IMG/VR virus record: IMGVR_UViG_3300031368_000248
Coordinates: 1-20,817 of that record
Source of the DNA: a virus
DNA length: 20,817 nt
Direction: 5' to 3' (one strand)
The notes under the pieces are model-generated. The model searched no databases, was not told the origin of the DNA, and was given only the letters and a program-made list of their open reading frames with translations. This document shows positions 1,970 through 19,984 of the stretch, piece by piece. How positions within the stretch are numbered: the first letter of the stretch is position 1; every line of letters starts with the position of its first letter. The translations under genes were made by a program, and so were the position numbers.

Positions 1970-2647
1970 ATGGCAGCAATATCCTTACCATATAGCGCGG
2001 CTGAAGCATTGGTGCAGGTACGGGCGCTTATAGGCGAACCAACTGCGGGTTTTTGGAGTGATGAGGAGTTGAACAACTGGGTGATAGAAGCTGCGGTGGA
2101 TATTTCCACCAAGACGCTGTGTTACGAGCATAAAAACACGCTGGCCTTAGTTGCGAATCAACTTGAATATACAGACTTTCTCGCGGCTCCTACTACTAAC
2201 GGGATTGCCCAGGTAGTGAAGGTATATACCTGCATCTATGATGATGGCAGCAATGGCTATCGGGGATTAAACAAGATACACCCTCGCATGATACAGCACC
2301 TACCGCAGGCAACCCCAGGTCCTCCCTATTATTACTATCACTTTGGGGGAAAATTAGGGTTTTTCCCTCTTCCTACTGCAATCGAAGCGGCACTTACCGG
2401 CCCCATTATCGTGAATTGCTCGCTTGTAGCGGATGCAATTACCGACCTGCCGGATCACTATCAGCAATTCGCTATTGTCTATGCGGCTGCGATGGCACGG
2501 TTCAAGGAGCGGAAAAATAGGGAAGCCATGGAGCTCTACACGCAATATATCAACGCCATGAATTTCCATAGGGTTGACCTTTACGAGCGTCCGGTAGACG
2601 CCAAGAGCGATATGCAGATACCCGATAGAACGGTTGTAGCGCAATAA
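1970..2647 (+). CDS. Adaptor-like tail-connector protein, paralogue 1
   Basis: The protein has 225 residues. The N-terminal third is helical, with SAAEALVQVRALIGEPTAGFW and SDEELNNWVIEAAVDISTKT, a pattern seen in phage adaptor/connector proteins of the gp6/SU10-adaptor kind. A central YRGLNKIHPRM and PYYYYHFGGKLGFFPLP lead to a final helix with AIVYAAAMARFKERK and a PDRT C-terminus. It is about half identical to the next gene and also related to the one after. AAGGAG lies 9 bases before ATG 1970. A connector-ring component is likely. How it differs from its paralogues cannot be told from sequence. Confidence 0.75.
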   Translation: MAAISLPYSAAEALVQVRALIGEPTAGFWSDEELNNWVIEAAVDISTKTLCYEHKNTLALVANQLEYTDFLAAPTTNGIAQVVKVYTCIYDDGSNGYRGLNKIHPRMIQHLPQATPGPPYYYYHFGGKLGFFPLPTAIEAALTGPIIVNCSLVADAITDLPDHYQQFAIVYAAAMARFKERKNREAMELYTQYINAMNFHRVDLYERPVDAKSDMQIPDRTVVAQ

Positions 2648-2659
2648 AGGAGATATAAA

Positions 2660-3337
2660 ATGTCAGCATTAGATTTATCAGATGGCTATACAGCAGCCGA
2701 AGCCCTGCAACAGGTAAGATCACTCCTAAACGAACCCACCGCAAACTACTGGACGGACGATGAACTCAATAAGTGGATTCAAGAAGCCTGCATAGACATC
2801 ACAACCAAGACCCTGTGCTATGAGAAATCAGGTGATATTACGCTCGTTTCAACGCCTGTGCTTACTTATGGCGCTCTGGATGGCGGTGATTCTATTGACG
2901 ATATCCTCAAGATTTACGGGGCGGTATATTATGACAGCACCAATGTCTATAGGGGCTTGATGAAAATTCATCCCCGGATAGTTGGCCGTACACAGGAACG
3001 GACACCAGGGGAACCTTATTACTATTATATCTTTGGCGATGAACTCGGCATTTTCCCTGTAAGCAATGCTGCGGTAGTAACCGCTACCGGCAAGGTTAAG
3101 GTTTTCTACTCCATGGCAGATGAAACTATTACCAATCTGCCCTACTACTATCAACCTCTAGCCATTTATTACGCGGTTGCCATGGCTCGACGCAAGCAGA
3201 AGATGGAAGCGGAAGGTAGACAGTGGCTTACCATGTATATCAACTCGATTCATTTCTACCGTGCGGATCTGTATGAGCGGGGTATTGATTCTAAGGAAAT
3301 GTTTCAGATTCCCGACAGGGCTATAGCAGTAGGATAA
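2660..3337 (+). CDS. Adaptor-like tail-connector protein, paralogue 2
   Basis: The protein has 225 residues, the same length and layout as the preceding gene. Shared blocks include AAEAL.QVR.L..EPTA, W.D.ELN.W..EA..DI.TKTLCYE, YRGL.KIHPR, PYYYY.FG..LG.FP, and DLYER followed by QIPDR. AAGGAG begins in the previous stop codon and ends 7 bases before ATG 2660, so the two are probably translated at similar levels. The paralogues may form successive rings of the tail or alternate in a mixed ring. Both ideas are inference. Confidence 0.75.
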   Translation: MSALDLSDGYTAAEALQQVRSLLNEPTANYWTDDELNKWIQEACIDITTKTLCYEKSGDITLVSTPVLTYGALDGGDSIDDILKIYGAVYYDSTNVYRGLMKIHPRIVGRTQERTPGEPYYYYIFGDELGIFPVSNAAVVTATGKVKVFYSMADETITNLPYYYQPLAIYYAVAMARRKQKMEAEGRQWLTMYINSIHFYRADLYERGIDSKEMFQIPDRAIAVG

Positions 3338-3344
3338 AAATGAA

Positions 3345-4376
3345 ATGGCATGTCTATTCACTACAGCATATTTATTGCAGACAATCCGGGCGATACTCAA
3401 CGAGAAATCGGCTGTACGATGGATTGACGACCAACTCAACAAATGGGTTCAGGAAGCGTCCATAGATATCAGCACGAAAACGGGTTGCTATGAACAAACG
3501 CACATCTTTCGGACATCTGAGAATGCCCTAGAATATGATGAACCAGATGGGTGCGTTAAGGTTCTCGGGTGCATGAAAGGAGGATATGATGATCAAAGCG
3601 AATGGGTTCAACATTTTGATGATGATTGGCAAGAAGGTGATTGTGTATATGCCAGTGCCACATGGGATGGAAGCAAATGGATAATAGTGCTTAATGGTGG
3701 TATCGCTCAAAGCTTAGATGTTAAAACCGGTGCTTCATGGTATAGTGGTTATACTCCCACAAAAATAAGGATTACTTGGAACCATGTATCAAAAATATCC
3801 ACATATTTTTATGCTTGGCCTGATTGGTTTTCAGATTCTGGTTATGAATCATTAGATGAAATAAATTTAGATACATCAGATGGTGATATTACTCGTCTAT
3901 GGATATGTGATTTAGATGGTTTGTTTCATCCGCCACAGACCTATAATATTACCAACATTGAATTTTATGAAGAAAATATACTTTCCGACACCGATTACCG
4001 GGGCCTCAGTCAAATACATCCCCGCCTTGTAGGGCACCTACCGATTTCGATCACCGATGAGCCTTATCACTGGTATCATCATCATAGCAAGATAGGGATT
4101 TATCCCGTTCCCGATGATGAATATATAGTTACCGCCTTTTACTCCAAAGTTACGGAAACCATTACCGACCTTCCATGCTGTATGCGATGGCTTGCGGTGC
4201 CCTATACCCTCGCAATGGCGCGACTATCCGAAGGATGGAAAGATGACTTTGAGATGTTCATGGCTATGTATCTCAATAATTTGATGTTTCACAAACAAGA
4301 CATATATCGGTCAAGGCTTGATATAGATGCACGGGATAAGTTTGAGATACCAATGGGAAAAGTAGCGAATGGCTGA
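3345..4376 (+). CDS. Adaptor-like tail-connector protein, paralogue 3, with large insertion
   Basis: The protein has 343 residues. The ends match the two upstream paralogues: RAILNEKSAVRWIDDQLNKW, DISTKTGCYE, then YRGLSQIHPRLVGHLP, ITDLP, AMARL and EIP near the C-terminus. Residues about 79-213 are an extra segment rich in Trp, Asp and Tyr that the paralogues lack. That segment is clearly AT-rich. I do not recognise its fold, but a beta-sandwich of binding type is plausible. ATG 3345 lies 7 bases after the previous stop with only a weak AGGA ahead, so translation is probably coupled. The C-terminus overlaps the next gene by 8 bases. Confidence 0.75.
   Translation: MACLFTTAYLLQTIRAILNEKSAVRWIDDQLNKWVQEASIDISTKTGCYEQTHIFRTSENALEYDEPDGCVKVLGCMKGGYDDQSEWVQHFDDDWQEGDCVYASATWDGSKWIIVLNGGIAQSLDVKTGASWYSGYTPTKIRITWNHVSKISTYFYAWPDWFSDSGYESLDEINLDTSDGDITRLWICDLDGLFHPPQTYNITNIEFYEENILSDTDYRGLSQIHPRLVGHLPISITDEPYHWYHHHSKIGIYPVPDDEYIVTAFYSKVTETITDLPCCMRWLAVPYTLAMARLSEGWKDDFEMFMAMYLNNLMFHKQDIYRSRLDIDARDKFEIPMGKVANG
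3579..3983 (+). other. AT-rich domain insertion in adaptor paralogue 3
   Basis: About 135 codons interrupt the conserved adaptor sequence between VKVLGCMK and the YRGLSQIHPR block. Sixty-base counts inside give 42, 38, 33 and 27 percent G+C (3661-3900), against 53 percent for 4021-4080 just after. The boundary matches the end of paralogue homology. It looks like a module acquired from a source of different composition. The fold is unknown. Confidence 0.65.
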
Positions 4377-6606
4377 AAATGATGAAATAGGCATTCTTGC
4401 AGAATACATCAGGTCCAAAATCCCTGTTGATATACCTGTGGCTCCCAATATGGAGATATTCACGGAAGAAGTCAGGGCCAAAACTCCCGCTGATATACCT
4501 GTAGCTTCCGATAAACAGATAATCGAACAAGTACCTCCTCAGCCTATACTTATCGAAGAATTGCCCTCGGCTCCCGACATGGAGGTAGTTCAAGAACATC
4601 CGCTCGCCACAATGTCCCTTGATTCGCTTTATGAAGCACCGAATACAGAGCTGAAAAACGTCTTCATCCCCTTTGACGGCAAATGGCTACCGGACAATGA
4701 ACCGATCGAGATAGGGGCGAAAAACTTCAAAACCCTTCAGAATTATAGATATGCCGGAGATGAGATCATACACCTTGAGAGCGTTCTGGGGTACTCCAAG
4801 ATAAACACCACCTCTTTGAGCACCTATAATTACGAGAATATCCGAAACGGCTTTCAACTACGGAGCGAATTCACCAAAAAGACCTACGTGTTGGTACATA
4901 CCGAGCACGACACAGTGGCGAGCAACTATTCTAAGGTTTATCAAAACCAGACGGCAATCCCGAGCCAAGGAGATTTTGTAGCCACCGCCCTTCATACGGA
5001 TTCAGGCTATTCCCTAGAGGGTAGATTCTCCGATGCCCCGGGAGGCCAGGTCTGCTATTGCAACGGCGAGGAGACTTGTATCTGGGCGGGTGAGGAGATG
5101 CGCTGTGCGGGATTTTTCAGTATCTACGTTCCCACGGTCACCGCTACTGATATCGCTTTCGTTGATGGTGGGGCCAGTGCCGATACGATTGTAAGCGATG
5201 CTCAGAACTTCATTCAGGCAGGATTTAAAGCGGGGCAGATAATAACGGTATCGGGAAGTACCAGCAACAATAATTCTTTCCGACTTGTGAGCATTTCTAA
5301 CGATGGGCTCACCCTTACACTTGACACGGGTGTCCTTACCGCTGAAGTGAAAGGGGATACCGTTACCGTCACGGTCCCAACACATTACGATTATCAGAAG
5401 GCAACGGATTATACCGATAGGATTAACAATGCGATAAACTCCGCTGCGGAAGCTGCATACGTTGTCGGAACTACCGGCTATAAATGGCTCGTGTTATCGA
5501 CGAGACCACTTCAAGGCGTTAAATATGCTTTGCGTACAGCCAATGGTACGGGATCAGCCACCACAACTTGCAAGATTTGGGATGGTGATTCTTTCGAGGC
5601 CGTAGATACCCCATCAGACGGAACTGATTCTGGTGGATCGATGAAGCAGAGCGGCACATTCTCTTGGAATTACAGTTCCAGCCCAGTCGCAAAACCTCTC
5701 TATTTTGAGGGCCTTTATCTCTATGCGTATCTCTTTGAGCTTTCCGCAGGAACTGCCTACATCTATCAGGTTACGCTAGATGCACCCTTTCAGAATGCAG
5801 TCGATATATGGGATGGCGTATATCGGCAACCCATATCATTTCAGGTATCAAGTGGATTATCAAAAGGCGGGGGAGAGGTCTCAGGAGATTCTCACGGTTT
5901 AATCGCTGAAGATGCGTATCCATGGATTTATGGCACTGGCCATGGATTGCGATTATGGTCAACGACTGATTTCAATAACATAAAGGTTGGTGCAGTTTTA
6001 ACTATTGTAGATTGGTCTCATACAGTAACAGTAACGCATAAGTTAGATAGTGGCTACCATATAGTGATTGATTCACCTTATACACAGTATACAGCATGGA
6101 GAGCCTTCACCTATGAAAATCCTTATGATCCCGGGACTGCGAAATACAAGAACTATACCCTTGAAGTCAATGAACCCTCCTTTGCGGATTATCCTATTGG
6201 AGCTGTTTTGGATGCTCTGGATACATATAATCATATTATCGTTATGTTTGAAGAGCGTATGTCTGCTATTTGGATTGAGATGATAGCAGGACTGGTAAAT
6301 ACAAATACATCCGTTGCATCTGTGAGTTACTGGAATGGCACTGACTATATTGGTAATCCAATCGTGGCCGATACTACTGGTGCGGGCAAATCCCTCAATG
6401 AATCCGGATTGATTAGTTGGAACCCTCCTGCTGAAACGAGTGAGTTTCGCAAGACCGAATTCGGCATTACGGGCTACGCCTACAAGATTAGCTTTACTGG
6501 TACGCTTTCGGGCACGGCAGGAGGAGCCCACGAGGTTGTGATTGATACCATCAAGGGTATCCCCGCACAAAACACGGTTAAGCCGTTCAAGTTCTCCGGG
6601 CAATAG
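4369..6606 (+). CDS. Tail nozzle/stopper-type protein, N-terminal frame
   Basis: The frame gives 745 residues and ends at TAG 6604-6606. Residues 16-78 are an acidic, proline-rich linker with imperfect P.DIPVA repeats. From residue 118, NFKTLQNYRY, NGFQLRSEF, YVLVHT, GRFSDAP and YCNGEETCIWAG match a family of large podoviral tail proteins with beta-propeller character, as I recall it. Residues 258-336 are the same inserted beta domain as in the adaptor at 1035. Residues about 385-477 and 635-735 look like two copies of one beta module, separated by an insertion at about 495-590. The sequence stops at KPFKFSG, exactly where the family normally continues, and continues in the next frame. The start ATG overlaps the previous gene (ATGGCTGA). 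Confidence 0.75.
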   Translation: MAENDEIGILAEYIRSKIPVDIPVAPNMEIFTEEVRAKTPADIPVASDKQIIEQVPPQPILIEELPSAPDMEVVQEHPLATMSLDSLYEAPNTELKNVFIPFDGKWLPDNEPIEIGAKNFKTLQNYRYAGDEIIHLESVLGYSKINTTSLSTYNYENIRNGFQLRSEFTKKTYVLVHTEHDTVASNYSKVYQNQTAIPSQGDFVATALHTDSGYSLEGRFSDAPGGQVCYCNGEETCIWAGEEMRCAGFFSIYVPTVTATDIAFVDGGASADTIVSDAQNFIQAGFKAGQIITVSGSTSNNNSFRLVSISNDGLTLTLDTGVLTAEVKGDTVTVTVPTHYDYQKATDYTDRINNAINSAAEAAYVVGTTGYKWLVLSTRPLQGVKYALRTANGTGSATTTCKIWDGDSFEAVDTPSDGTDSGGSMKQSGTFSWNYSSSPVAKPLYFEGLYLYAYLFELSAGTAYIYQVTLDAPFQNAVDIWDGVYRQPISFQVSSGLSKGGGEVSGDSHGLIAEDAYPWIYGTGHGLRLWSTTDFNNIKVGAVLTIVDWSHTVTVTHKLDSGYHIVIDSPYTQYTAWRAFTYENPYDPGTAKYKNYTLEVNEPSFADYPIGAVLDALDTYNHIIVMFEERMSAIWIEMIAGLVNTNTSVASVSYWNGTDYIGNPIVADTTGAGKSLNESGLISWNPPAETSEFRKTEFGITGYAYKISFTGTLSGTAGGAHEVVIDTIKGIPAQNTVKPFKFSGQ
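5140..5376 (+). other. Inserted small beta domain (copy B) in tail nozzle/stopper protein
   Basis: These ~79 codons encode DIAFVDGGASADTI, GFKAGQIITVSGS and a LTAEVKGDTVTV ending. They match copy A at 1245-1472 at protein level. The copy sits in an otherwise unrelated protein, which marks it as a mobile structural module. Confidence 0.7.
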
Positions 6607-6613
6607 GCTTATG
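6595..6613 (+). other. Apparent +1 frameshift joining two halves of the tail protein
   Basis: Upstream frame reads TTC TCC GGG CAA TAG. The downstream frame reads GGC AAT AGG CTT ATG. Removing one G from GGG (6598-6600) gives a continuous F-S-G-N-R-L-M-L and a single protein of about 1111 residues, the form I expect for this family. This could be a single-base error in a G run, a real inactivating mutation, or programmed +1 slippage before a slow CAA-TAG context. Confidence 0.7.
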
Positions 6614-7705
6614 CTCTGTGGATATACCCAGGGGAAAGAGGGCAACAGAGTTGACTATTCGGTAAGCGAAGCCGCAGATGTGTTCAACGGTGACGAATCG
6701 AGCATGGACGGCATACAGAGCCTTTACGTAGGAGGCAAGGACGATCTTACCTGTGGAATCGAACTATTTAACCGCTTTGGTTCCAACATTATCAGTTCCT
6801 TCCTACTCTTTAAAAACACCGAAACGTATCTGCTTACCGGCGATGGGCCGGATAATTACAGGCTATATACGATCTCAAGAACCATCGGTTGCCCTGCTCC
6901 CCTGACTATCGCAGTGGCAGAAGTGGTATTTGCCGACGGGATAACCCGCAGGGTAGTGATATGGATGTCCTACGCCGGCCCTATGATGTTCGATGGTGCT
7001 GCAATTATGCCTATTCCCGGGATTAACAAATATTTTGACCCTGCTAAAACTGCCCGATTGGAGACTGCTAGCATCAAAAGATGCCGAGGGTGGTTTGATG
7101 CCACATATAGAGAATATAATCTTGTAATCCCTTCCGCATCTGGAGCCACAAACTGCACTGTATGGGTGTTTTATGATCTTGTAAGAAAACGCTGGTCTGA
7201 GAAAAAACCCGGTGCATCGGAGATACCGCAGGCCGCTTGGCCCGTGATCGATACTGATGGGAAACAATACATCTATGCCGGTATCAATGACGGCAATATG
7301 ATGAGGTTGGAAAACGGAGCTACATGGGCAGATGATTCAGCAACCGCTATGTCTCCTGTGATAGAAACCGGTGATTTCTTTCCATCGGGCGATTTATGGC
7401 ATATCACTACAATCCGACGGGTGAAAACGATTGTTAAGAAAATAACTGAAGCGAGCAAGAATCTTACAACTACACACTATAAGGATACGGAAGCAACAGG
7501 AACCTCATTGACTGCCCATAACCTTGACGCTGGAGATCCTATCAGTAAATTTACGCAAGCTGCGCCTAGTGGTACACCATTGTTCGGGTGGGCTCATCGT
7601 TTTAAATTTGAACTGAGTGCTGGGTTTGTTACGGAAACTCAATTTCACCCAATCGGATTCGGGTATCAATATCTTATCGAGCGGGATGATGAATACGATA
7701 TATAA
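6611..7705 (+). CDS. Tail nozzle/stopper-type protein, C-terminal frame
   Basis: From ATG 6611 the frame encodes 364 residues. Homology-like sequence begins a few codons earlier (NRLMLCGYTQGKEGNRVDYS), in the frame reached by a +1 shift from the previous gene. Motifs NRVDYSVSEAADVFNGDESS, LYVGG.DDLT, ELFNRFGS, LLFKNTETYLLTGDGP, IGCPAPLTI, and later WMSYAGPMMFDG and VFYDLVRKRWSEK fit repeated beta-propeller blades of phage tail stopper/nozzle proteins. There is no good ribosome site before ATG 6611 (only AGG at 6605-6607, 3 bases away). Separate expression would need reinitiation after TAG 6604-6606. Most likely this is the second half of the preceding gene. Confidence 0.7.
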   Translation: MLCGYTQGKEGNRVDYSVSEAADVFNGDESSMDGIQSLYVGGKDDLTCGIELFNRFGSNIISSFLLFKNTETYLLTGDGPDNYRLYTISRTIGCPAPLTIAVAEVVFADGITRRVVIWMSYAGPMMFDGAAIMPIPGINKYFDPAKTARLETASIKRCRGWFDATYREYNLVIPSASGATNCTVWVFYDLVRKRWSEKKPGASEIPQAAWPVIDTDGKQYIYAGINDGNMMRLENGATWADDSATAMSPVIETGDFFPSGDLWHITTIRRVKTIVKKITEASKNLTTTHYKDTEATGTSLTAHNLDAGDPISKFTQAAPSGTPLFGWAHRFKFELSAGFVTETQFHPIGFGYQYLIERDDEYDI

Positions 7706-8663: not shown

Positions 8664-9266
8664 ATGGCAACACAATTAGGTGCGGTTACAGGCCGCAGGA
8701 TACCCTCACAGTATCGGTCCATCATTAATGCCGAGGCTTCACGACTGCCCGATATGTATGCAATGAGAGAAGATAGAAAATACCGTGAGAACTTGTCGGC
8801 ACAACGAGAGAGAGAACTTCAACTGGCGGAAGAAAGCCAAAGGATACAGGAAAGACAAGCCAAGATTGCAACGGGAATAAGTGCTGCTCAGGTAGGGGCT
8901 ACGGGTTATCTGGCACGAAGTATGACGGCTGGGGGAGGAACAGCCACGCCCGCAACTACGGTTCCCATTGGCTCAAGCCCTGACTTTTATGGTGCTCCTG
9001 GAACTCCTGTACCACAAGCAACCACCATGGGTTATCTCGGTACTGCTGGTGCTGGTTATATGGGTGGAAAGATAGGTGGACGTCTTGGCGAAAAATATAT
9101 TCCAGAAGGTTTAGTAAAAGGCAAAGAGTCAAGGGGTAGATGGGGATCAATGGCCGGAGGAGCTGCGGCAGGGGCGGCATATGGCACATGGCTAGCACCA
9201 GGCGTAGGTACTGGTATCGGTGCAGTAATCGGCGGTGTTGCAGGCCTTGTTTCATCCTACTTTTAA
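8664..9266 (+). CDS. Putative ejection protein with glycine-zipper C-terminus
   Basis: The protein has 200 residues. Residues 30-68 are a highly charged coiled-coil helix, then IATGISAAQVGATGY (about 68-82), then a Gly/Ala/Pro-rich linker with many Thr. Residues 161-197 are a glycine zipper (GGAAAGAAYG, GTGIGAVIGGVAGLV) able to span a membrane or self-assemble. This organisation fits internal virion proteins that leave the head and help form a channel in the host envelope. AGGAG at 8651-8655 precedes ATG 8664, one base after the previous stop. The function is inferred from layout and neighbours; no enzymatic motif is visible. Confidence 0.7.
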   Translation: MATQLGAVTGRRIPSQYRSIINAEASRLPDMYAMREDRKYRENLSAQRERELQLAEESQRIQERQAKIATGISAAQVGATGYLARSMTAGGGTATPATTVPIGSSPDFYGAPGTPVPQATTMGYLGTAGAGYMGGKIGGRLGEKYIPEGLVKGKESRGRWGSMAGGAAAGAAYGTWLAPGVGTGIGAVIGGVAGLVSSYF

Positions 9267-9281
9267 TGAGGAGTAATTATC

Positions 9282-10547
9282 ATGGCAGATTATGGTTTAG
9301 TACCCAGAGCATTACGAGGTTTATCTGAAACTGTCTATCGTGGAATGGCGGGTATTGGTGAATCTCGCCTAAAACGTGCAGACATAGGTTTAGAGGAAGC
9401 CCGCACAGGATTTGAGATAAAAAAGGCCGAAGAGGAGCGGGCACACAGAGAAAAAGTATTTGGTGTTGAGCAGGAAAGGTATGCGGAACAAGCCCCAATT
9501 AGAGAGGCAAACATTGAACAGGCCAACCTAACAGGTGAAACAGCACGGAAAGGGCTGGAGAAATTAGGCAGGGAAAAAAGGGCGCTCGAAGAGCCTGTTA
9601 CCCATAGTTGGCTTGCAAAGATTACCGGTGTGAGAGATCCCGAGGATCTTATCAATCGTCTTCCTAATGTCGTGAAAGGCGTAGAGGAAGGATATGGGGC
9701 CAAAGCGGATCAAACAGGCGTATTTATGACGGCCCAAGGGCCTCTCACAAAGCGACAAATTCAGGAGAGTCCCGACCTTTTCAATGCCATCGATCTGCTC
9801 AACCGAGATTACGTATATCAGCTACAATCGGAAATGGTAGATCCCGCTACCGATGAAAAGAGAAGGGCAAGATTGAAAGAGGTGCTGAAGGACAAAGAAC
9901 ATATCTACGCAACACAGTTAGACCACATGCTATCGCTTCAAGCCCATGCCTCTAACATATTGCCAGAAGGACAGCAAAAGGTACTTCAGACTAACATCGA
10001 CCGGATAAAGGATAAGATCAAATACCATAGGGAGCAAAAGGGCAAGGAAAAACTGGAGAGGATTAAACAGACAGGCAAGGGCAAAGAAGCCGAGGTACAG
10101 TTTCAGTATTGGAATAAGGATGGCAAAAAACACACAGTCTATCTACCAAAAGCCACAGTTCCCGCATTTGAGAAAGCGATACTGGATGCGGGAGGGGGTA
10201 CGGAGAAGCCGGAAAAACCAGAGAAAGGGAAAGAACTCAAGGTGAGCGATTTCAATTCCCTTATCGGTCTTATCGATAAATACACCAATAAGGGCGAAAG
10301 AGAGCTCACGCCTGAACAAAAGAAGATCATCAACGATGCAGCCAATACTATCGGTTATGAATACAAAGAGGTAACAGGCAAAATTATGCCTTCTGAAAAA
10401 CGATGGTATTGGACAGATCCCGAAACCAAGAAGCGATGGACACTGGTTAAATCCAGTGGTGAACCGGGCGGTGTGAGGCATAAGATTGAAAAGCCGAAGT
10501 CATATAAGCCCAAATCAAAGAAAGCAGACCCGTTAGGCATTAGATAA
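9282..10547 (+). CDS. Putative internal virion protein, coiled-coil
   Basis: The protein has 421 residues and is very rich in Lys and Glu. Residues about 20-105 predict a long coiled coil (ADIGLEEARTGFEIKKAEEE onward). A central region (THSWLAKITGVRDPEDLINR, MTAQGPLTKRQIQ) and more helix follow. A Lys/Pro-rich stretch (TEKPEKPEKGKE) separates a small C-terminal domain with KRWYWTDPETKKRW. There is no membrane segment or catalytic motif. GAGGAG at 9268-9273 is 8 bases before ATG 9282. Its last stop base is the first base of the giant gene's ATG (TAATG), so the two are translationally coupled. A partner of the giant ejected protein is a reasonable guess. Confidence 0.7.
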   Translation: MADYGLVPRALRGLSETVYRGMAGIGESRLKRADIGLEEARTGFEIKKAEEERAHREKVFGVEQERYAEQAPIREANIEQANLTGETARKGLEKLGREKRALEEPVTHSWLAKITGVRDPEDLINRLPNVVKGVEEGYGAKADQTGVFMTAQGPLTKRQIQESPDLFNAIDLLNRDYVYQLQSEMVDPATDEKRRARLKEVLKDKEHIYATQLDHMLSLQAHASNILPEGQQKVLQTNIDRIKDKIKYHREQKGKEKLERIKQTGKGKEAEVQFQYWNKDGKKHTVYLPKATVPAFEKAILDAGGGTEKPEKPEKGKELKVSDFNSLIGLIDKYTNKGERELTPEQKKIINDAANTIGYEYKEVTGKIMPSEKRWYWTDPETKKRWTLVKSSGEPGGVRHKIEKPKSYKPKSKKADPLGIR

Positions 10548-13500
10548 TGAATTTATCTGAGATACGAAAACAATACCCTGATTATGATGATCTTTCCGAT
10601 GATCAGTTAGCAAGGGGTTTTCACCAGAAGTTCTACACCGATATGCCGTGGAATGATTTCAAGAAGAAGATCGAGTATGTCCCCGGCAGGGTAGTTGAAA
10701 CGAAACCCATAGAGATTGAAAAGCCCTCCTTTGCCAAAGATGTAGCCCTTCAGACCGCGAAGGATGTTGTGGGAGTCATTCAAAAAGTGCAAGCTGGAGT
10801 TACCGAAGCAATAACATTCGGTGTTGTTAAGCCAGAAAAAGGTACTGTTGGAATCCCTTTTACATCAATTCAAAAAAAAGTCAGGGAACCGATAAGTAAA
10901 ATACTCAAGGAACGATATGGCGTTTCTCCTGAGATTGCTGAAAGCCCTTATATTGGCATCCCAGGCCAATTCATGGGAATTATCTTGCCTTGGTCCATAA
11001 CCTCCAGGCTAGTTGGTTATGGCGTGAACTACCTCAGGGCCCTGCGGATCGGCAAGAACTTGATGAAAATCACCGATACCGCAAGAAGAACAGAGGCCGC
11101 AGGAAATATCATAAAGAAAGCAGCGGCCAGGGTAGGCCAGCAAGCCATCACGGGGGGGATTGTCGGTGGCGCTCGTGTGCGGGAAGAAGATGAATCGCTG
11201 TTGCGAAACGTCCTCACTACCGCCGCCCTTGGCGCAGGTCTGCAAATGCTTGGAGAGGGTGTCAATGTTATAGCCACATCCACAGGATTCAGCAGATATG
11301 GAGCATATAGACGCTTAAAGAAAGACTTCACCGACCTACTCTATAAAAACAGGAAAGAACCGCTCAGCAAGGCAGAGGTTGAAGATGTTGCGGATATGGC
11401 GATCAACAAAGCCGCCCAGGATGCGGGACTAGAAAAACTCACAAGGAAAGACCTGAATTCCCTACGGAAAAGTGTGAAGGATATCCGGGGAAAGGTAGAG
11501 AAGGCCCGGGCAGAGAGGGGCGAACCAGTAGCGGAGCCAAGACCGGAAGAAGCCGTAGCCGAAACCCAGACCCAGAAACAGGCCTTTCTAAGGAGAATCG
11601 GCCAGGATGTAGCAGACCCCGCAAACCCCATTACCCCCGCAAATGTCGCTTTCATGGGTGAAAACCCCGCCGTACAAGCCCTTGGCATTACCCAGGAGGA
11701 GCTTAATGCGGTCGCAACTAAGGCAGTAGGGGATACCATAGTAGCGTCTACCACCACAGATGTGTTTGCATCAGGCGATAGGGCAGTAGAGCAATTCCTT
11801 GAAGAGGCCAAAGATGTTGAACCACTTGAGATTATGGAAGAACCTAAAAAGGTTGTCCCCCGGGAACCAACTCCTCTGCAGTTGGTTAAGCGTGAGGCGG
11901 TTGCAGAGGAGAAGGTTGAGCCAAAGCAAGTCCATGATTATAGCAATACACAGGTCAATATCCCGGAAAAGGAAGCCTCTGAAGTCCGCAGTTTTGCTAA
12001 AGAAATACCCGATGCTGAAATCTATGAAGACCCTAAAGATGATTCTTACGGCAGGATCGATGACCCCCATGTAACCGTTCGGTATGGGATGGAAACCCTT
12101 GACCCCAAAGAAATTGAACCTGCTTTTAAAGGGGTTGGACCGATAAAAATCAAGATGGGAAAAGTCTCTATCTTCGAGACTGATAAATATGATGTTGTCA
12201 AGATTGATATTGAAAGTGAAGACCTGGAAAAGGCAAATAAACAAGTGGGAGAAACCGTTGATTTACCGGGAGAAACACACAAGGAATATAAACCACACGC
12301 TACTATTGCCTATGTGAAGAAAGGCGAGGGCAAAAAATATATTGGCAACACTTTCTTTGAAGGTAAAGAGATAACCATTGATGAAATTACATTAATCTCA
12401 AAAGATGGAAAAGTACACCCAATAAAGTTAACTGGAAAAGAGGAAATAATAGAGGAGGCCAAACCTATCGCTACATTCGCACATTATTGGGAAGTACCAG
12501 GAAAAGAACCAATTCCTTTCTATACAGTAAAAGGCGGTAGATATGACGGAAGTACCATCGCCGCAAAGACACTTGAAAAGGAAGGGATTGCAATACCGGA
12601 GACACCGGAGAAGCCTGTTAAGGTCGAAAAACCACCCACAGAAGCGATAGGCGTCCCAGGGATCGAAGAAAAGGCAGAGGCGAAGGGTGAGGTCATACCT
12701 AAAGTAAAAGACGAGATTGATTCACTTATTGAACAATATGAGGCAACTGGCAGGGTTGCCCATAGATACCCAAAGAAAAAGGAAATCTCTCTTAGTGGAA
12801 GAACGATGTCTGAAAAGGTTGCTATCACTAAGATGAAAGAAGTCATCAAAGGAGAAGCACCCAAGGCGAAAGAGACATGGGAGATGACAAAGAAAGAAAT
12901 TGAAGAAGAACACGCTTTTGAAGATATAAATACTTATGCACTTCATACAAACGCAATCCAACAAGCCCTCTCCAAAAACAAACCCGTCCCCCGCCATGTC
13001 CTAGAGGAGTACAAGGGGGAGAAGTGGGCGGATGAAGCATTGAAGAAAAGTCGCCCTAAAAAGATCGGCGATGCTCAAAAGGTAATGGGAATAGATGCCA
13101 TTGTAGCAAAAACTGAACGTATTGATGGCATTGATTATGAACTTTACAATGCAAATGCGCTAAAAGACAAGCGAGGAATAGTAAGAGCTTATGATGTGGA
13201 GTCTGGCAATGTAATCAGCATGAAAGAGTATCCAACGTATGACCAGGCTGAAACAGCGTATAACGATGCCATTAAAGCCCTTAAAAAAAACCCCCCCCCC
13301 ATCAAAAAAGGGGCGGCCAAGGCTATCCCCAAAGCCAAGGCCACTAAGTCCGTCATCCTCAAAGACAAAAAGCAACTTCTCGCTGATATAGATAAAGCGA
13401 TTGAGAAGGCACCAGAATCAGGCACAGAGACAGCAGAAAATATGATGCACTTCGATATTGATGGTGGCGCAGATATTTGGAATACAGAGGCAGCCTTAAA

Positions 13501-16500
13501 GGAATTTAGAAGCAGGGTTGCTAAAACCGCAGAAAGTAAACCCCTCACGATTACCAAAATATCTGAATCCCGTGAATCAGCGCCTACCCTAGAAAAAGAG
13601 GTAGACCAAACTATCAAGATGTATGGTGAGGCAAGTAAAGCCGCAGATATTATTGAGCGTCAAAGCAAGAAGCTGGAACCCACAGAAAGAGAACAAGTAA
13701 AACATCAAAGACTTATTGATGAATTAAGACGTAGGGCTGAAATCACTTCAGTGCCAGAAGACCAAGTATCTGATAGATTTTCCGAAGTCGAAAAGAAAGT
13801 TAAAGCGGAAGCGTATGAACTTGAAAAATCCAAAGCTATGCAGGCCAAAGAAGAACGAAGACAGCAAGCAAAAAAGGCAATTAAAAGGCATTCATCCTAT
13901 AAGGAATTAACTAAACTCATAAAAGAACATGATGAATATGGGAAAATCGACTTCACAAGAACGAAAGGTGAGCTTGAAAATGATCCCCTTAATTATCAAG
14001 GGGCTGAATATACAAAGAGTGGCAAGCGCCTCACAAAACATAGAGGACGGATAAAAGAAATACAGGAAAAGATAGCCAAGGATCTGAATATCAGAAGAGG
14101 ATATTCAGAATATGCTAGAGCATTTGGAGGTGGTAGGCGAAAAACGGAAGGCGATTTTGATCTCTCAACTTATTGGACAGAGGAAGCAAAGAAGGGCGAG
14201 ACAGAGGAGATTGAAGAGAAGATTGAGGATTTTGGAGAAAAAATCGGTGGAGCCCGTAAAGATACAGCAGAGCGTGGATACACCATGACCAGAAAGGCAA
14301 TAAAAGAGGGTGAAGGGATTGAACCATGGCGTAAGAAATTCGTGGCCATGGAAAGGGTTGATGGAACTGGTTGGACTATCGGGAAGGCTGGGGATAAGTT
14401 CGGCATAAGCAGAAGGCCAGGGCAAGTTTTTGCATCAAAAGAAGAGGCTGAGGCAACTATACCGATATTCGCCGTCGCTGAAAATCACAGAGTTTATAAT
14501 GACCGCGAAAACAAAGATGAATGGTCAATATTCAAGCGGGTAGGGAAAAGAAAGCTGTTTAAGGTTGTTGGTAAAACATTTCCTTCCAGAGAGGAAGGAA
14601 TGAAATACATGACCCTACATGCTGAGGAAATACTGAATATCAAAACAGCGTTCGGTGAAGAAATATTACCTATACCGGAAATAGCCGTCAGGAAAGGAGT
14701 AGAGAGAAGAACAAAAGATGCAACACCTGAAATGTTTATGGAGACATTCGTACCAAGAGGGATTGAATTCGGTAACTGGAATAACCAGGAAGAGCGCCAA
14801 CAGGTGTTAAATCACGCCTACGATGGACTCCTTGACCTAGCAGAAGTACTGAATATACCACCAAAGGCTTTAATGCTTGATGGTGATCTTGCCATCGCCT
14901 TTGGTGCAAGAGGACATGGATTGTCAGCGGCAAAGGCTCACTATGAACCGAAATATGGGGTCATCAACTTAACAAAGATGAGAGGTGCTGGAAGCCTTGC
15001 TCATGAGTGGTTTCATGCCTTGGATCATTACTTTGCGCGGCAGGACACGAAGGCCATCGCTGAAAGAGAAAAGGATAAGCATGGAAACTTAGTTTATAAA
15101 ACCAAGGCAGGCCGATATAGTTTCCAGAGCTATGGCCCGAGCTATAAATCGAAGGTACGTCCCAAATTGCAGGAAGCCTATGATATCCTAATGGCAACCA
15201 TGTTTAGGAAGGCAGAGAAATATGTTGATGACATGACTTATGCTGAGAAATTCTTTGGGGCTGCCAGGGATCAACTTGAGAAACAAATCAGTAGCATACG
15301 AAACGATTTAGACCAAGACTTGACGAAAACATATACGTGGAGAAAGAATAAACGAGGGCTTCTCCCTGCATCAAATGAACAACTCACTGAATTTGATACC
15401 CTTACGAAGATTCTGATTGAGGGTGGGAACCTTGAAACTAAGTTTATCGCATCTGAAAAGACGAGAAGGTATGGGGGTGGGCGTTACTCGAATGAAACCT
15501 TAGAGGCAATCAGCAAGATACTGAAAAGCGTTAGGAACAGGAACGGCTTTACTTCTGATCATGCAGGGCTACTTGACCGTTTATCTGCGGCAATGCGAAC
15601 TTACTCTGAACGTCTCAAGCTATTTGATGATGCCAAAAAACGAATTGAAAAGACGAAAAAAATCCCTACATCGTATGCCGTTGAAGCAAAAAAGATGGAT
15701 CAGGCTAGAACAGGTGATTACTGGAGCGAACCGCATGAGATGGCAGCAAGAGCGTTTTCTTCTTACATTGAAGATAAGATCGCGGGACAGGGAAACCAGA
15801 GTGATTTTATAGTTTACCATGCTCACGGCGGGATTTTCCTACCGATGATAGACGGCTATGTAGCAAGGCCATACCCTGAAGGAACAGAGCGAGTTGCTAT
15901 AAACGAGGCATTTGATAAACTTTTTGAGATAATGGAAAGCAAGGAGACCGAGAGAGGCGTTAGCTTGCTCCGTCTTGAACCCGCCCTCGAAGCAGAACTC
16001 CAAGGCTACTCCTTCACCAAACGCCAACAAAAGAACGCGATCCGCACGGCTCCCCTTGTTGTGAACTGGCTCAAACGCGCCGGCGCCGACAAAGAAGTAT
16101 TGGACCGGATCACTGTGGAGCTCAAGCCCTTTATCGACCTAAGGGGTAAGAACATAACCAAAACCCTCCGGGATTGGTCAACTGAAGGTGTGGACATGGG
16201 TAGGATACTCGGAGCTACTACCTTCAGTAAATATCATGCCCTCATTCAGCTTGCCATGAATGGGCAAAACATAGCCGGTTTAGAGCGATCTACCTATCAC
16301 GAGTGGTATCATGTGGCTAAACGCTGGATGTTGCCACAGAGCGATGTAAATGCCCTCGCAAAGCACTTTAAAACTGAAGAGAGTGAAGCGGATTCGTTCG
16401 CCGACTACATGAAGAACTCAAAGACGACTGATAAGGAACCCGGCTTTATCAAACGATTATTCCTCAAGCTCAAGAGGATGATCAATATAATCCGCAACGG

Positions 16501-19500
16501 GTTGAAAGGGATGGGATTCAAAAGGCCAGAGGATATATTCGGAAAGATCAGGACGGGGGCATATAAGCCAAAAGCCAGGGGTGCGGAAACAACGGCAGTT
16601 GGGATGAAGGGGGAAACGAGAGCAACATTGAGTGGACTTGATTTTGAAATGTTGAAGGAAGATAAATCCGTCTTTTGGCATGGGACACCAAGTGGCGATT
16701 TGCGAGGCTCACATTATGGCCTTCATGTTGGAACTTATCAAGCGGCAAAAGAAGCCTTAAATGCCAGAATTGGAATACCAGCAGAAGGTGAATGGGATGG
16801 AACCCGTGAATACGGGAAAACGCTTCTTGCTGGCAAAAAAAGACTTAAAGAATTAGATCCTAAAGAATTTAACCAAACAGGGTTCAATGCTGGAGAAGAT
16901 ATTCCAGAAAAAAATTATTACCCAACACAACGTAAACAAATAGCGAAATACAGTGATCGATCTGAAGTTCTATTCAATTCAAAGCCAAACATCTTCCCCG
17001 TAAGGATTAAGGGGAAAATGACAAATACGCCATACACGCCACACGAAGATTTCAAAGCTAATGCTTTAATGGCTAGACAGATAAAAAAGGGGAAGGCAAA
17101 AAAAGGATATTATTATGAGCAAGTAGGTGAAGATGCTGGTTCAATATCAGCAGTCGTTCCTAATCTTCAGCATCTTGAAATGATTACCGAAGAAACTAAG
17201 CTCTCCTTAGAAAAAGATCTTTCCAAAGAAGAAAAGCTCGCCAATGAGTACGTTGAAAAGGCCCTCGGCAAAGTCCAAGAAACCAAAGTCACGGAACTCG
17301 AGCCCGAGGAGGTATCCCCCGAGGCCTACGAAAAGATCAAGGCACAAGAGGCACAGAAGCCCATCGAAAAGCTCATTGCACAGGCCAAGAATGACGAGCG
17401 CCTTATCTACCATGTGCGGAGCACCCTGAAGAAGGCCATGTCCATAGGCAAGAAAGAGGGGATCGCAAAGCAGAAGGCACATTATCAAGAGGTAGTTGCC
17501 CGGGCAAAGGCACGGAAAGAGCAGATCGCCAAGATCCGGAAGATGATAGATGAGCTCAAAAAGGTAGATACCGAAAAGATGTCACCCCAGGAAGCAGAGC
17601 CCGTGAAGGATCTCCTTGAAGGCATCAACCTAGTGAAGCCGACAAAAAGAACCGTGGCGCGGCTTACCAAGACTAGGGAATATCTTGAAAGCGATTATGA
17701 CGCGGAGCTCCCCGGCTATGTGATGGAAAACCTCAAACGGCTGGACAAGAGTAATATCAGGGATATGTCGGTCGAAGAGATAGCGTCCATCCATACCGCG
17801 GTAATGCACTATATCCACCTCAACAAGCTCAAGAACACGATCAAAGTTCGCAGGGAAGCGAGACGCAAGGCAGAGGTATTACGTGCGTCTGTCGCGGAGA
17901 TGAAACCACCGAAGAAGGTTAAAGATGAAATTGTCTCCTCACAAAAAAGCAAGGTGGGGAGAACCAAAAAGACCGCGAAACTCATCACGGATACGTTCGG
18001 AATCCGGCATGATCACTATGATCTCATCATAGAGTCCCTTGCAGGCCAGAATAGCACCATGGATAAGGTGCTCTATCAGGGTATCAAAGAGGGGATAATT
18101 GAGCAGTTGAAGTACAAGCAGGATACCTACAAGAAATTCTTGAAAGACTTGGGGGATGATTTCTCGGAGAAGCACGGGATCGATGATATAGGCAAGTGGC
18201 TGAACGAGGAAGTTGTTACCGGAAAATTCAGGCTTACCCGGGGTGAGAGAATGGCACTGCTTCGCCATGCCCTCAACGAAGGCAATCTCAGGCATTTACT
18301 TGCGGGGGGATTCGGATTTCGCACCAGTGATACGCCTAACAGGGTTTATAAGATCACAGCCAAGGAACTGAATGAGATATTGCAAAGCCTCACCCCTGCG
18401 GAAAAACACTTTGCAGGGGACCCGGTGAATAAGCTCTTTGAGGAGCAATACAAACGACTCAATGATGTATTTTATGCGAAAAACGGCTACCCGTTACCCA
18501 AGACCACAGACCCATACTATCCCATTGAGGTAATGCCCATAACTCTCGGTACGGATCTTGAGACCGTGGAGGCATTGGAGCAATTCAAGGGCAAATGGAC
18601 CCGCATAGGCTTAGAAAAGGGTATGCTGGAAAAGAGGGTAAAGTCCAGGAAGCCCCTTTACCTTAGCTCGATAGTATTTGATATCAATCGTAGCGTAATG
18701 AAATCCGCTGCCTATGTAGGGCTTGAACTGCCTTTGAGCAATGCCTCAAAGCTACTCTATGATCAATACTTCCGCACCGAACTTGAAAATAGATACGGAA
18801 AGCAGACATGGCGAGAGATAGAAAAGGGTCTGCGGGACATAGCAGGGGATTACCAGAGCTACACTACCGTTGAAGAAATGGCTTTGAAGTTGAAAAATAA
18901 CCTGTCTGTAGCCATGCTCGGAGTAAACCCCTTTGTAATGTTCAAGCAGGTTCTTTCCCTCCCCATATATCTGCCTTATGTAAAAGCAGAGTATATGATC
19001 CAGGGAATGATTGACTTTACAGTACATCCCATAGAAGTAAGCGAGCGACACAAGATATTTTCCCCTGAATACCTTGAAAGGGTAGAAGGGGGGTACAGCA
19101 GGGATGTAGCCGATGTGTTCAAAGGCGCCGCAATGAAGCGACTCTATGCTGGAAGGACAACCGTAAAAGAAAAGTTCATGGGTGGGATACAACTTTTTGA
19201 CCGTACCGCTGTTAGTGCCGGTATGCAAGGGGCTGTTTTGCAGGTGTTGGATGAATTCGCTCAGGGGAAGTTATCAAAGGAAGTTCGTATCGCCCTCGAT
19301 ATGAAGGACAGCGACATAATGAATCTCACCCCTGCACAGAAAATGAAGCAGGCTTATAAGTTTGCTGACTATACCACGGAAAGAACGCAACCAATGTTTT
19401 CCCCGGAGCATCGGTCTTCCCTTTCCCGGGGGGCCACGCTTGAAAAATTAGCTACCATGTTCGGGGCTTTTACCAACCAAGCCCTTAATCTAATGAGGAG

Positions 19501-19984
19501 AACCTACAGGGAAGTAAGACGTACAGGTGATAAAGCGGCTTATGCAAAATGCGCTAAGGCGCTTTTCCTTATTCTCGTGGTCAACACCATGGGCGTTATG
19601 GCGATCGATGAGATACGGAACAGGCTTTACGGGAGAAAAGGGACTTCCATCGCTGGACGCATCCTCAACACATGGACGGGTTATATGTTTTTTGTTCGGG
19701 ATCTCGCAAGTTCGGTGATCAGCAAGATAGAGAAGGGAACCTTTCTCGGCTACGACGTTGAACTTCCCATCCAGAGAGTACCGGAACTGCTTTCAAATGT
19801 CATCGCCAATGGAGTAAAAGTTTTTACCGAAAAATCAGACAAGAAACGAAGTAAGGCTGCAACTAGGTTTGTAGATGATGCTTTCAATCTTATCCTTACC
19901 ATGCAAGGCATTCCCTACGAAACCCCCAAGAAACTTATCGTGAGTGCAACTAAGCAAAAAAAGGAGGCCACGGCAGCTTATTAA
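10547..19984 (+). CDS. Giant phage polyvalent protein, probably virion-ejected, with 2H, two zincin and ADP-ribosyltransferase-like modules
   Basis: The protein has 3145 residues. The N-terminus (IRKQYPDYDDLSDDQLARGF) is a motif I associate with large phage internal proteins. A Gly/Ala-rich hydrophobic stretch lies at 199-243. A 2H phosphoesterase-like domain is at 479-628 (HVT 508-510, HAT 584-586). A short YDGSTIAAKTL element (about 640-690) and a WEMTKKE...VPRHVLEEY element (778-822) recur in polyvalent proteins. A duplicated small domain is at 1264-1365. An LPD1-like zincin is at 1395-1500 (HEWFH 1486-1490; PHEMAARAF 1729-1737). A second zincin is at 1880-2000 (HEWYH 1918-1922; E1947). 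An ADP-ribosyltransferase-like domain is at 2035-2215. Coiled coil fills about 2215-2480. A conserved C-terminal part spans about 2785-3020, with a hydrophobic segment at 3004-3022. Polyvalent proteins of this build are known from phages and plasmids. The exact substrates are unknown. Confidence 0.85.
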   Translation: MNLSEIRKQYPDYDDLSDDQLARGFHQKFYTDMPWNDFKKKIEYVPGRVVETKPIEIEKPSFAKDVALQTAKDVVGVIQKVQAGVTEAITFGVVKPEKGTVGIPFTSIQKKVREPISKILKERYGVSPEIAESPYIGIPGQFMGIILPWSITSRLVGYGVNYLRALRIGKNLMKITDTARRTEAAGNIIKKAAARVGQQAITGGIVGGARVREEDESLLRNVLTTAALGAGLQMLGEGVNVIATSTGFSRYGAYRRLKKDFTDLLYKNRKEPLSKAEVEDVADMAINKAAQDAGLEKLTRKDLNSLRKSVKDIRGKVEKARAERGEPVAEPRPEEAVAETQTQKQAFLRRIGQDVADPANPITPANVAFMGENPAVQALGITQEELNAVATKAVGDTIVASTTTDVFASGDRAVEQFLEEAKDVEPLEIMEEPKKVVPREPTPLQLVKREAVAEEKVEPKQVHDYSNTQVNIPEKEASEVRSFAKEIPDAEIYEDPKDDSYGRIDDPHVTVRYGMETLDPKEIEPAFKGVGPIKIKMGKVSIFETDKYDVVKIDIESEDLEKANKQVGETVDLPGETHKEYKPHATIAYVKKGEGKKYIGNTFFEGKEITIDEITLISKDGKVHPIKLTGKEEIIEEAKPIATFAHYWEVPGKEPIPFYTVKGGRYDGSTIAAKTLEKEGIAIPETPEKPVKVEKPPTEAIGVPGIEEKAEAKGEVIPKVKDEIDSLIEQYEATGRVAHRYPKKKEISLSGRTMSEKVAITKMKEVIKGEAPKAKETWEMTKKEIEEEHAFEDINTYALHTNAIQQALSKNKPVPRHVLEEYKGEKWADEALKKSRPKKIGDAQKVMGIDAIVAKTERIDGIDYELYNANALKDKRGIVRAYDVESGNVISMKEYPTYDQAETAYNDAIKALKKNPPPIKKGAAKAIPKAKATKSVILKDKKQLLADIDKAIEKAPESGTETAENMMHFDIDGGADIWNTEAALKEFRSRVAKTAESKPLTITKISESRESAPTLEKEVDQTIKMYGEASKAADIIERQSKKLEPTEREQVKHQRLIDELRRRAEITSVPEDQVSDRFSEVEKKVKAEAYELEKSKAMQAKEERRQQAKKAIKRHSSYKELTKLIKEHDEYGKIDFTRTKGELENDPLNYQGAEYTKSGKRLTKHRGRIKEIQEKIAKDLNIRRGYSEYARAFGGGRRKTEGDFDLSTYWTEEAKKGETEEIEEKIEDFGEKIGGARKDTAERGYTMTRKAIKEGEGIEPWRKKFVAMERVDGTGWTIGKAGDKFGISRRPGQVFASKEEAEATIPIFAVAENHRVYNDRENKDEWSIFKRVGKRKLFKVVGKTFPSREEGMKYMTLHAEEILNIKTAFGEEILPIPEIAVRKGVERRTKDATPEMFMETFVPRGIEFGNWNNQEERQQVLNHAYDGLLDLAEVLNIPPKALMLDGDLAIAFGARGHGLSAAKAHYEPKYGVINLTKMRGAGSLAHEWFHALDHYFARQDTKAIAEREKDKHGNLVYKTKAGRYSFQSYGPSYKSKVRPKLQEAYDILMATMFRKAEKYVDDMTYAEKFFGAARDQLEKQISSIRNDLDQDLTKTYTWRKNKRGLLPASNEQLTEFDTLTKILIEGGNLETKFIASEKTRRYGGGRYSNETLEAISKILKSVRNRNGFTSDHAGLLDRLSAAMRTYSERLKLFDDAKKRIEKTKKIPTSYAVEAKKMDQARTGDYWSEPHEMAARAFSSYIEDKIAGQGNQSDFIVYHAHGGIFLPMIDGYVARPYPEGTERVAINEAFDKLFEIMESKETERGVSLLRLEPALEAELQGYSFTKRQQKNAIRTAPLVVNWLKRAGADKEVLDRITVELKPFIDLRGKNITKTLRDWSTEGVDMGRILGATTFSKYHALIQLAMNGQNIAGLERSTYHEWYHVAKRWMLPQSDVNALAKHFKTEESEADSFADYMKNSKTTDKEPGFIKRLFLKLKRMINIIRNGLKGMGFKRPEDIFGKIRTGAYKPKARGAETTAVGMKGETRATLSGLDFEMLKEDKSVFWHGTPSGDLRGSHYGLHVGTYQAAKEALNARIGIPAEGEWDGTREYGKTLLAGKKRLKELDPKEFNQTGFNAGEDIPEKNYYPTQRKQIAKYSDRSEVLFNSKPNIFPVRIKGKMTNTPYTPHEDFKANALMARQIKKGKAKKGYYYEQVGEDAGSISAVVPNLQHLEMITEETKLSLEKDLSKEEKLANEYVEKALGKVQETKVTELEPEEVSPEAYEKIKAQEAQKPIEKLIAQAKNDERLIYHVRSTLKKAMSIGKKEGIAKQKAHYQEVVARAKARKEQIAKIRKMIDELKKVDTEKMSPQEAEPVKDLLEGINLVKPTKRTVARLTKTREYLESDYDAELPGYVMENLKRLDKSNIRDMSVEEIASIHTAVMHYIHLNKLKNTIKVRREARRKAEVLRASVAEMKPPKKVKDEIVSSQKSKVGRTKKTAKLITDTFGIRHDHYDLIIESLAGQNSTMDKVLYQGIKEGIIEQLKYKQDTYKKFLKDLGDDFSEKHGIDDIGKWLNEEVVTGKFRLTRGERMALLRHALNEGNLRHLLAGGFGFRTSDTPNRVYKITAKELNEILQSLTPAEKHFAGDPVNKLFEEQYKRLNDVFYAKNGYPLPKTTDPYYPIEVMPITLGTDLETVEALEQFKGKWTRIGLEKGMLEKRVKSRKPLYLSSIVFDINRSVMKSAAYVGLELPLSNASKLLYDQYFRTELENRYGKQTWREIEKGLRDIAGDYQSYTTVEEMALKLKNNLSVAMLGVNPFVMFKQVLSLPIYLPYVKAEYMIQGMIDFTVHPIEVSERHKIFSPEYLERVEGGYSRDVADVFKGAAMKRLYAGRTTVKEKFMGGIQLFDRTAVSAGMQGAVLQVLDEFAQGKLSKEVRIALDMKDSDIMNLTPAQKMKQAYKFADYTTERTQPMFSPEHRSSLSRGATLEKLATMFGAFTNQALNLMRRTYREVRRTGDKAAYAKCAKALFLILVVNTMGVMAIDEIRNRLYGRKGTSIAGRILNTWTGYMFFVRDLASSVISKIEKGTFLGYDVELPIQRVPELLSNVIANGVKVFTEKSDKKRSKAATRFVDDAFNLILTMQGIPYETPKKLIVSATKQKKEATAAY
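11981..12430 (+). other. 2H phosphoesterase-like domain inside the giant protein
   Basis: Two HxT motifs, DPHVTVRYG and KPHATIAYV, lie 76 residues apart (H508/T510 and H584/T586), each on a beta-strand-like segment, as in 2H phosphoesterases. The stretch is AT-rich (35 percent G+C in 12301-12360), against 58 percent in 11521-11580. The family cleaves or makes 2',3'-cyclic phosphates in RNA and nucleotides. Phage T4 Acb1, which destroys CBASS cyclic nucleotide signals, belongs to it. Confidence 0.75.
13283..13300 (+). repeat. A8-C10 homopolymer pair inside the giant gene
   Basis: Eight A followed by ten C encode Leu-Lys-Lys-Asn-Pro-Pro-Pro in frame. The frame continues intact here. Such runs are prone to replication and polymerase slippage and to sequencing miscalls. 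Confidence 0.9.
14729..15745 (+). other. LPD1-like zincin metallopeptidase module
   Basis: Conserved pieces are RGIEFGNWNNQEERQQVLNH, YDGLLDLAEVLNIPPKAL, LAIAFGARGHG, YGVINLTKMRGAGSLAHEW, then FHALDHYF. They match the large polyvalent protein-associated metallopeptidase-like family I know as LPD1. HEWFH (1486-1490) supplies two zinc ligands and the catalytic Glu. A possible third ligand is in YWSEPHEMAARAF (about 1725-1737). Proteolysis is likely but unproven. Confidence 0.8.
16184..16560 (+). other. Second zincin-like metallopeptidase module
   Basis: STYHEWYHVAKRW carries HEWYH at 1918-1922, with EADSFADYM (E1947) 25 residues after the second His, the usual place for a third ligand in Glu-zincins. 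The following helical tail (GLKGMGFKRPEDIFGKIRTG) is common after such modules in phage polyvalent proteins. The spacing supports an active site different from the first zincin. Confidence 0.75.
16649..17190 (+). other. ADP-ribosyltransferase-like domain (polyvalent type)
   Basis: FWHGTPSGDLRGSHYGLHVG (H2045) resembles the H-G-T...G-x-H-F-G-T start of ART-PolyVal domains, and YYYEQVGEDAGSISAVVPNL (E2195) resembles the usual end, with the catalytic-type Glu near Glu-Asp. The stretch is AT-rich (28 percent G+C in 16861-16920) between flanks near 57 percent. NAD-dependent transfer of ADP-ribose to a host target is likely, but the target is unknown. Confidence 0.65.

Follow-up and report, generated by a model that had tools for sequence, protein, structure and literature searches.

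2H phosphoesterase domains have been described in phage polyvalent proteins, including forms fused to MuF or portal, and were proposed to act as RNases or to degrade immune nucleotides; the MuF and portal fusions agree with the RNase reading, and the phage polyvalent domains lack an association with RNA ligases (Iyer et al. 2017, PMC5512222). The 2H fold is shared by Acb1, whose base contacts are Y12, W74, F107, E141 and W147, with W147 acting as a lid and E141 contacting adenine (PMC9117128). Here we describe a 2H domain in a viral stretch of 20,817 nucleotides (IMG/VR record IMGVR_UViG_3300031368_000248, positions 1 to 20,817; the window), for which an initial annotation had proposed a 2H-like domain, possibly directed against CBASS, inside a giant, probably ejected protein. 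That idea is known in outline (Iyer et al. 2017, PMC5512222), which limits the surprise, and the window protein is a well-conserved further example; what is added is the window member itself, the limits of the clade around it, a signature segment of that clade and the position of the clade with respect to Acb1.

A 2H domain within a giant protein

The domain lies within a long open frame with the following features (window coordinates).

10547–19984, + strand: 3,145-aa polyvalent, probably virion or ejection protein with the 2H module (open frame)
11933–12436, + strand: 2H phosphoesterase cassette, residues 463–630 (PF13563 over cut-off, alignment boundary, AlphaFold2 model)
12068–12076, + strand: first catalytic motif, H508-V-T510, followed by Y513 and G514 (motif and column conservation)
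12296–12304, + strand: second catalytic motif, H584-A-T586, within Y581-K-P-H-A-T-I-A-Y589 (motif and column conservation)
12314–12346, + strand: clade signature V590-K591-K-G593-E-G595-K-K-Y598-I-G600, after the second motif (column conservation)
15002–15016, + strand: HEWFH, residue 1486, possible zincin-type peptidase motif (motif only)
15695–15940, + strand: LPD1 domain (PF18796), residues 1717–1798 (66.6 bits against a cut-off of 27)
16298, + strand: HEWYH, residue 1918, second possible zincin-type motif (motif only)

Residues 463–630 almost certainly form a 2H phosphoesterase domain. A search of the whole giant protein with PF13563 (2_5_RNA_ligase2) exceeded the 27-bit cut-off (32.4 bits, E = 1.2e-7), the same profile gave 38.9 bits for the domain in the genome search, and PHROG 755, the family that includes T4 Acb1, matched with E = 2e-6. 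A pair of HxT/S motifs proves little by itself, since at least two arise in 4.8% of shuffles of the 2H stretch; at the DNA level, 49 HxT codon matches were observed against 60.5 expected, so that the motif by itself is uninformative. Solved structures searched with the single sequence returned weak matches only, and a family profile was required. Placement in the 2H superfamily draws on the two H-x-T/S motifs (H508/T510 and H584/T586) together with a two-lobed predicted fold. Both motifs had been read in the initial annotation and are borne out, with HVT at residue 508 (nucleotide 12068) and HAT at residue 584 (nucleotide 12296); the span originally given (11981–12430, residues 479–628) was correctly located but slightly short of the conserved module. 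With both motifs present, the active site appears intact and catalysis is predicted. PADLOC returned no match.

Among the other pieces of the giant protein, LPD1 alone exceeded a Pfam cut-off, and further PHROG matches were to families of unknown function. The two HExxH motifs are possible zincin sites, which might cleave the giant protein into pieces, and a WHGT...HYGLHVGT stretch (window 16676, around residue 2044) resembles the HGT...G motif of ADP-ribosyltransferases. The former were unmatched in Pfam and the latter matched neither Pfam nor solved structures, so we claim neither peptidase nor ADP-ribosyltransferase domains for this protein.

Gene neighbourhood and probable virion carriage

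Upstream of the giant gene and on the same strand are genes typical of the particle.

1970–2647, + strand: SU10-type head-tail adaptor, first (PF24175 over cut-off)
2660–3337, + strand: SU10-type head-tail adaptor, second (position and likeness)
3345–4376, + strand: SU10-type head-tail adaptor, third (PF24175 over cut-off)
8664–9266, + strand: 200-aa protein with a glycine zipper (Gly-zipper and tape-measure matches, both weak and under the cut-off)

The order runs from the adaptors to the glycine-zipper protein, the giant gene and another large ORF at 19987, which we take to resemble the T7-like gene order of podoviruses. The N-terminus of the giant protein matches large proteins of phages with 36–53 kb genomes, several from marine hosts, and its C-terminal third weakly matches Bbp10 of the Bordetella podophage BPP-1. 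Together with the virion-protein fusions seen in relatives (below), this neighbourhood and these terminal matches make it quite probable that the giant protein is virion cargo, and we infer that it is packaged and ejected into the host. The protein also has the makeup of a polyvalent protein, being 3,145 aa long and multidomain (LPD1 and 2H), with its gene among virion genes. The original placement of the domain in a giant, probably virion-borne protein is therefore supported by LPD1, the gene context and the fusions in relatives.

Three features of the same region stand apart from this question. The three successive ORFs at 1970–4376 begin alike, and the head-tail adaptor gene is seemingly triplicated. 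The adjacent ORFs at 262–612 and 653–994 (116 and 113 aa) look alike by eye, which suggests tandem duplication of a probably capsid-associated small protein. The ORFs at 4369–6606 and 6542–7705 share a stretch in different frames; a frameshift, or an error in sequencing, may have divided what is a single tail gene.

Conservation of the domain

Relatives were gathered from viral contigs, from bacterial genomes and from phage records, yielding 99 loci with the 2H domain, a number that includes some repeat copies of single loci and some near-identical entries. The domain also occurs in a cultured phage, Tunturiibacter phage Tunturi_5 (gp321). These comprise 69 in frames of at least 600 aa and 27 small stand-alone proteins, and among the viral contigs of IMG/VR at least 541 stretches encode a relative of the domain. 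In a 75-row alignment, H508, G514, Y581, P583, H584, T586 and Y589 are invariant and I487, G502, Y513, F543, D549, V550, K591 and G593 nearly so; T510 is also invariant in a 69-row alignment that leaves out rows from annotated records, where both HxT motifs are unvaried. By column, the first motif shows H 100%, T 100%, Y 91% and G 100%, and the second 100% at each of Y581, P583, H584, T586 and Y589. A segment of the clade's own, K-x-G-x-G-x-K-Y-x-G, follows the second motif (K591 94%, G593 96%, G595 90%, Y598 90%, G600 91%).

Among relatives, dN is 0.20–0.40 and synonymous sites are saturated, so that dN/dS is without value; low amino-acid divergence alongside saturated synonymous sites nevertheless points to purifying selection on the domain. 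Its location in virion-associated proteins would suit an inactive or structural relic kept for binding or assembly only, but the unvaried catalytic motifs and the low dN make a relic highly improbable.

A mobile cassette

When the window protein was compared with whole relatives, most aligned over residues 463 to about 630 only, and the sharp start at residue 463 recurred across relatives; a few share more (for example, L017 over residues 2302–3130, at 61% identity). Twenty-five larger relatives scanned with Pfam gave the following partners of the 2H domain, which in several of these proteins was the sole domain found.

Portal: L058, L068, L070, L079, L081, L091 and L094; just under cut-off in L048
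MuF: L068 and L097; L070 and L079 under the cut-off
Possible prohead protease: L042, below cut-off
SLT lysozyme-like domain: L028 and L039
LPD38: L031 and L034
ART-PolyVal: L007 and L017
Histidine phosphatase: L057 and L093
Topoisomerase IB: L091
Zeta toxin/AAA_33: L081

Three proteins are unusually composite. A single 1,270-aa phage protein (L081:528-4337) carries portal, 2H and Zeta toxin/AAA_33; another (L091:3-4145) joins portal and 2H to a topoisomerase IB domain of nearly full length; and one giant protein (L057:2596-12048) combines an FtsK gamma domain, histidine phosphatase and 2H.

In the tree, stand-alone and large-protein versions interleave, with 8–9 changes between them, at least 5 of which are forced by supported branches. 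Given this interleaving and the varied fusions, the 2H domain is a modular cassette that phages have transferred repeatedly among their proteins, often onto virion components.

The ART-PolyVal fusions bear on an improbable reading, in which the substrate is ADP-ribose 1'',2''-cyclic phosphate or a related compound made from NAD, and the domain works alongside the ADP-ribosyltransferase domains of some polyvalent proteins. It draws on the shared polypeptide in L007 and L017, the possible ART-like HGT...G motif around residue 2044 and a fold match to plant CPDase (TM 0.66); however, Pfam did not recognise ART in the window protein, just two of the larger relatives have it, and most fusions are without an NAD-related domain.

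Predicted fold and relation to Acb1

An AlphaFold2 model of residues 469–631, built from the 69-row alignment, was confident (pLDDT 94, pTM 0.88), and its good structural matches were 2H enzymes only. Comparison with Acb1 and LigT-type enzymes, suggested at the outset, thus gave no sign of a fold outside the 2H type. By E-value, the penguinpox cGAMP PDE ranked first (E = 3.4e-4), followed by BCSR5 Acb1, YjcG, CPDase, human Usb1, a Thermus thermophilus protein (1iuh) and FBB1 Acb1. TM-scores were 0.66 for YjcG, 0.66 for plant CPDase, 0.59–0.62 for human Usb1 and 0.47–0.56 for Acb1, so the modelled domain is by fold at least as near YjcG, CPDase and Usb1 as Acb1; because YjcG and CPDase score higher than Acb1, the comparison gives no choice of substrate. 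In a library of viral structures, the best match (TM 0.87) came from an uncultured phage and is likewise a large protein.

At the sequence level, Acb1 is closer. The family profile matched BCSR5 Acb1 best among solved structures (E = 8e-8), ahead of plant CPDase (9e-5), FBB1 Acb1 (4e-4) and YjcG (9e-4), and HHalign favoured Acb1 over a shorter span (E = 4e-14, versus 1e-9 for cellular LigT/ThpR); the cellular LigT-like protein L114 likewise scores well against the clade family. Some relatives exceed the 27-bit cut-off of the Acb1 family PF23474 (L062 and L093, 35.3 bits; L050, 29.9; L010, 27.6), which places the clade near Acb1 yet not as part of it. In the tree, the nine Acb1 sequences group apart (support 100/100) across a very long branch, with the window domain outside. 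Of the five base contacts of Acb1, ring-bearing residues were seen at two positions only: that of W74 is taken by F543 (99% F) and that of F107 by H, F or Y in 92%; E141 and W147 are without evident counterpart in the clade alignment.

Membership of Acb1 was rejected, the window domain scoring 19.5 bits against the 27-bit cut-off, falling outside the Acb1 clade and showing no evident lid residues. Of the anti-CBASS link first proposed, what stands is that Acb1 is the nearest sequence relative of solved structure.

Proposed function

In the account we favour, a podovirus-like phage carries a 2H cassette of a phage-specific clade as cargo in its polyvalent virion protein, and the cassette would most likely enter the host together with the DNA. 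Its two HxT motifs are predicted to support metal-independent cleavage of phosphodiester or cyclic-phosphate bonds beside a ribose 2'-OH, and, as with Acb1, the substrate would be a small nucleotide with an accessible 2'-OH adjoining the bond that is cut; a defence signal is the likeliest candidate. Hydrolysis of a signal nucleotide may, by analogy, be the main role, a reading that we hold tentatively and whose least certain part is the substrate. In its favour are the Pfam and PHROG matches, the structural matches to penguinpox cGAMP PDE and phage Acb1, the sequence nearness to Acb1, the relatives above the Acb1 cut-off, the ring-bearing residues at two base-stacking positions, the fusions to portal, MuF, SLT, ART-PolyVal or LPD38 and the low count of RNA ligase PF09414 in relatives' records. 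Several observations argue against it. TM-scores favour YjcG, CPDase and Usb1 over Acb1, whose E141 and W147 have no evident counterpart and whose sequences group apart in the tree. Some relatives fuse 2H to the portal, which normally remains with the particle, so that only a domain freed by cleavage could enter the cell. L081 with its Zeta/AAA_33 domain fits RNA end healing.

The main rival, held with less confidence, casts the domain as an RNA enzyme whose targets would be tRNAs or other RNAs cleaved by the defences of the host; it would be either an RNase of the Usb1 type or a 2',3'-cyclic phosphodiesterase for the healing of RNA ends. The best structural matches include CPDase (TM up to 0.66) and Usb1 (up to 0.62), the K-x-G-x-G-x-K-Y-x-G segment could touch longer RNA, and the domain is fused with a kinase-like Zeta/AAA_33 domain in L081 and with histidine phosphatase in L057 and L093; the MuF and portal fusions were also read in favour of an RNase (Iyer et al. 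2017, PMC5512222). Yet the nearest sequence relative of solved structure is Acb1, and the RNA ligase family PF09414 occurs in only 6 of 34 relatives' records, many of which are fragments, PF09414 being the sole ligase family searched. That count is in line with the reported lack of RNA-ligase association (PMC5512222).

On entry, the targets of the window module could be nucleotide alarm signals of the host or the ends of RNAs. The most specific version of signal hydrolysis, which we regard as rather unlikely in full, is that a virion-delivered 2H enzyme outside the Acb1 clade degrades a cyclic or 2'-5'-linked defence signal at the onset of infection, ahead of all phage gene expression, its cassette having moved repeatedly between portal, MuF and ejection-type proteins. 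If the module does destroy a defence signal, its counter-defence would not depend on the expression of phage genes, which would set it apart from the small Acb1 proteins known so far. As the clade is large and sharply bounded, one purified domain could test a function common to many phages.

Comparison with known systems

The closest described group is that of Iyer et al., with which the window protein and its relatives share a 2H domain in large multidomain proteins, stand-alone forms and fusions to MuF or portal, the lack of an RNA-ligase association, and the same proposed roles; at the level of the published description, there is no evident difference in kind. An individual counterpart is A0A6J5RHA8 from an uncultured Caudovirales phage (annotated '2'-5' RNA ligase superfamily'), which has the same 2H domain (TM 0.87, 34% identity) in a large protein predicted in several pieces; its sequence has diverged from the window domain.

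LigT/ThpR and YjcG (PF02834/PF13563) share the fold and catalytic motifs, the window domain passing the PF13563 cut-off and matching YjcG at TM 0.66. A long branch separates the window clade from them, and five positions past the second histidine the clade has a tyrosine, against arginine in three of four cellular LigT proteins in the comparison. With Acb1 (T4 gp57B, PF23474/PHROG 755), the window domain shares the 2H fold, H-x-T-x-x-Y twice, Y-x-P-H-x-T at the second motif and ring-bearing residues at two base-stacking positions. It differs in the extra K-x-G-x-G-x-K-Y-x-G segment, in showing no evident C-terminal lid residues and in being embedded in a giant protein, whereas Acb1 is a small stand-alone protein.
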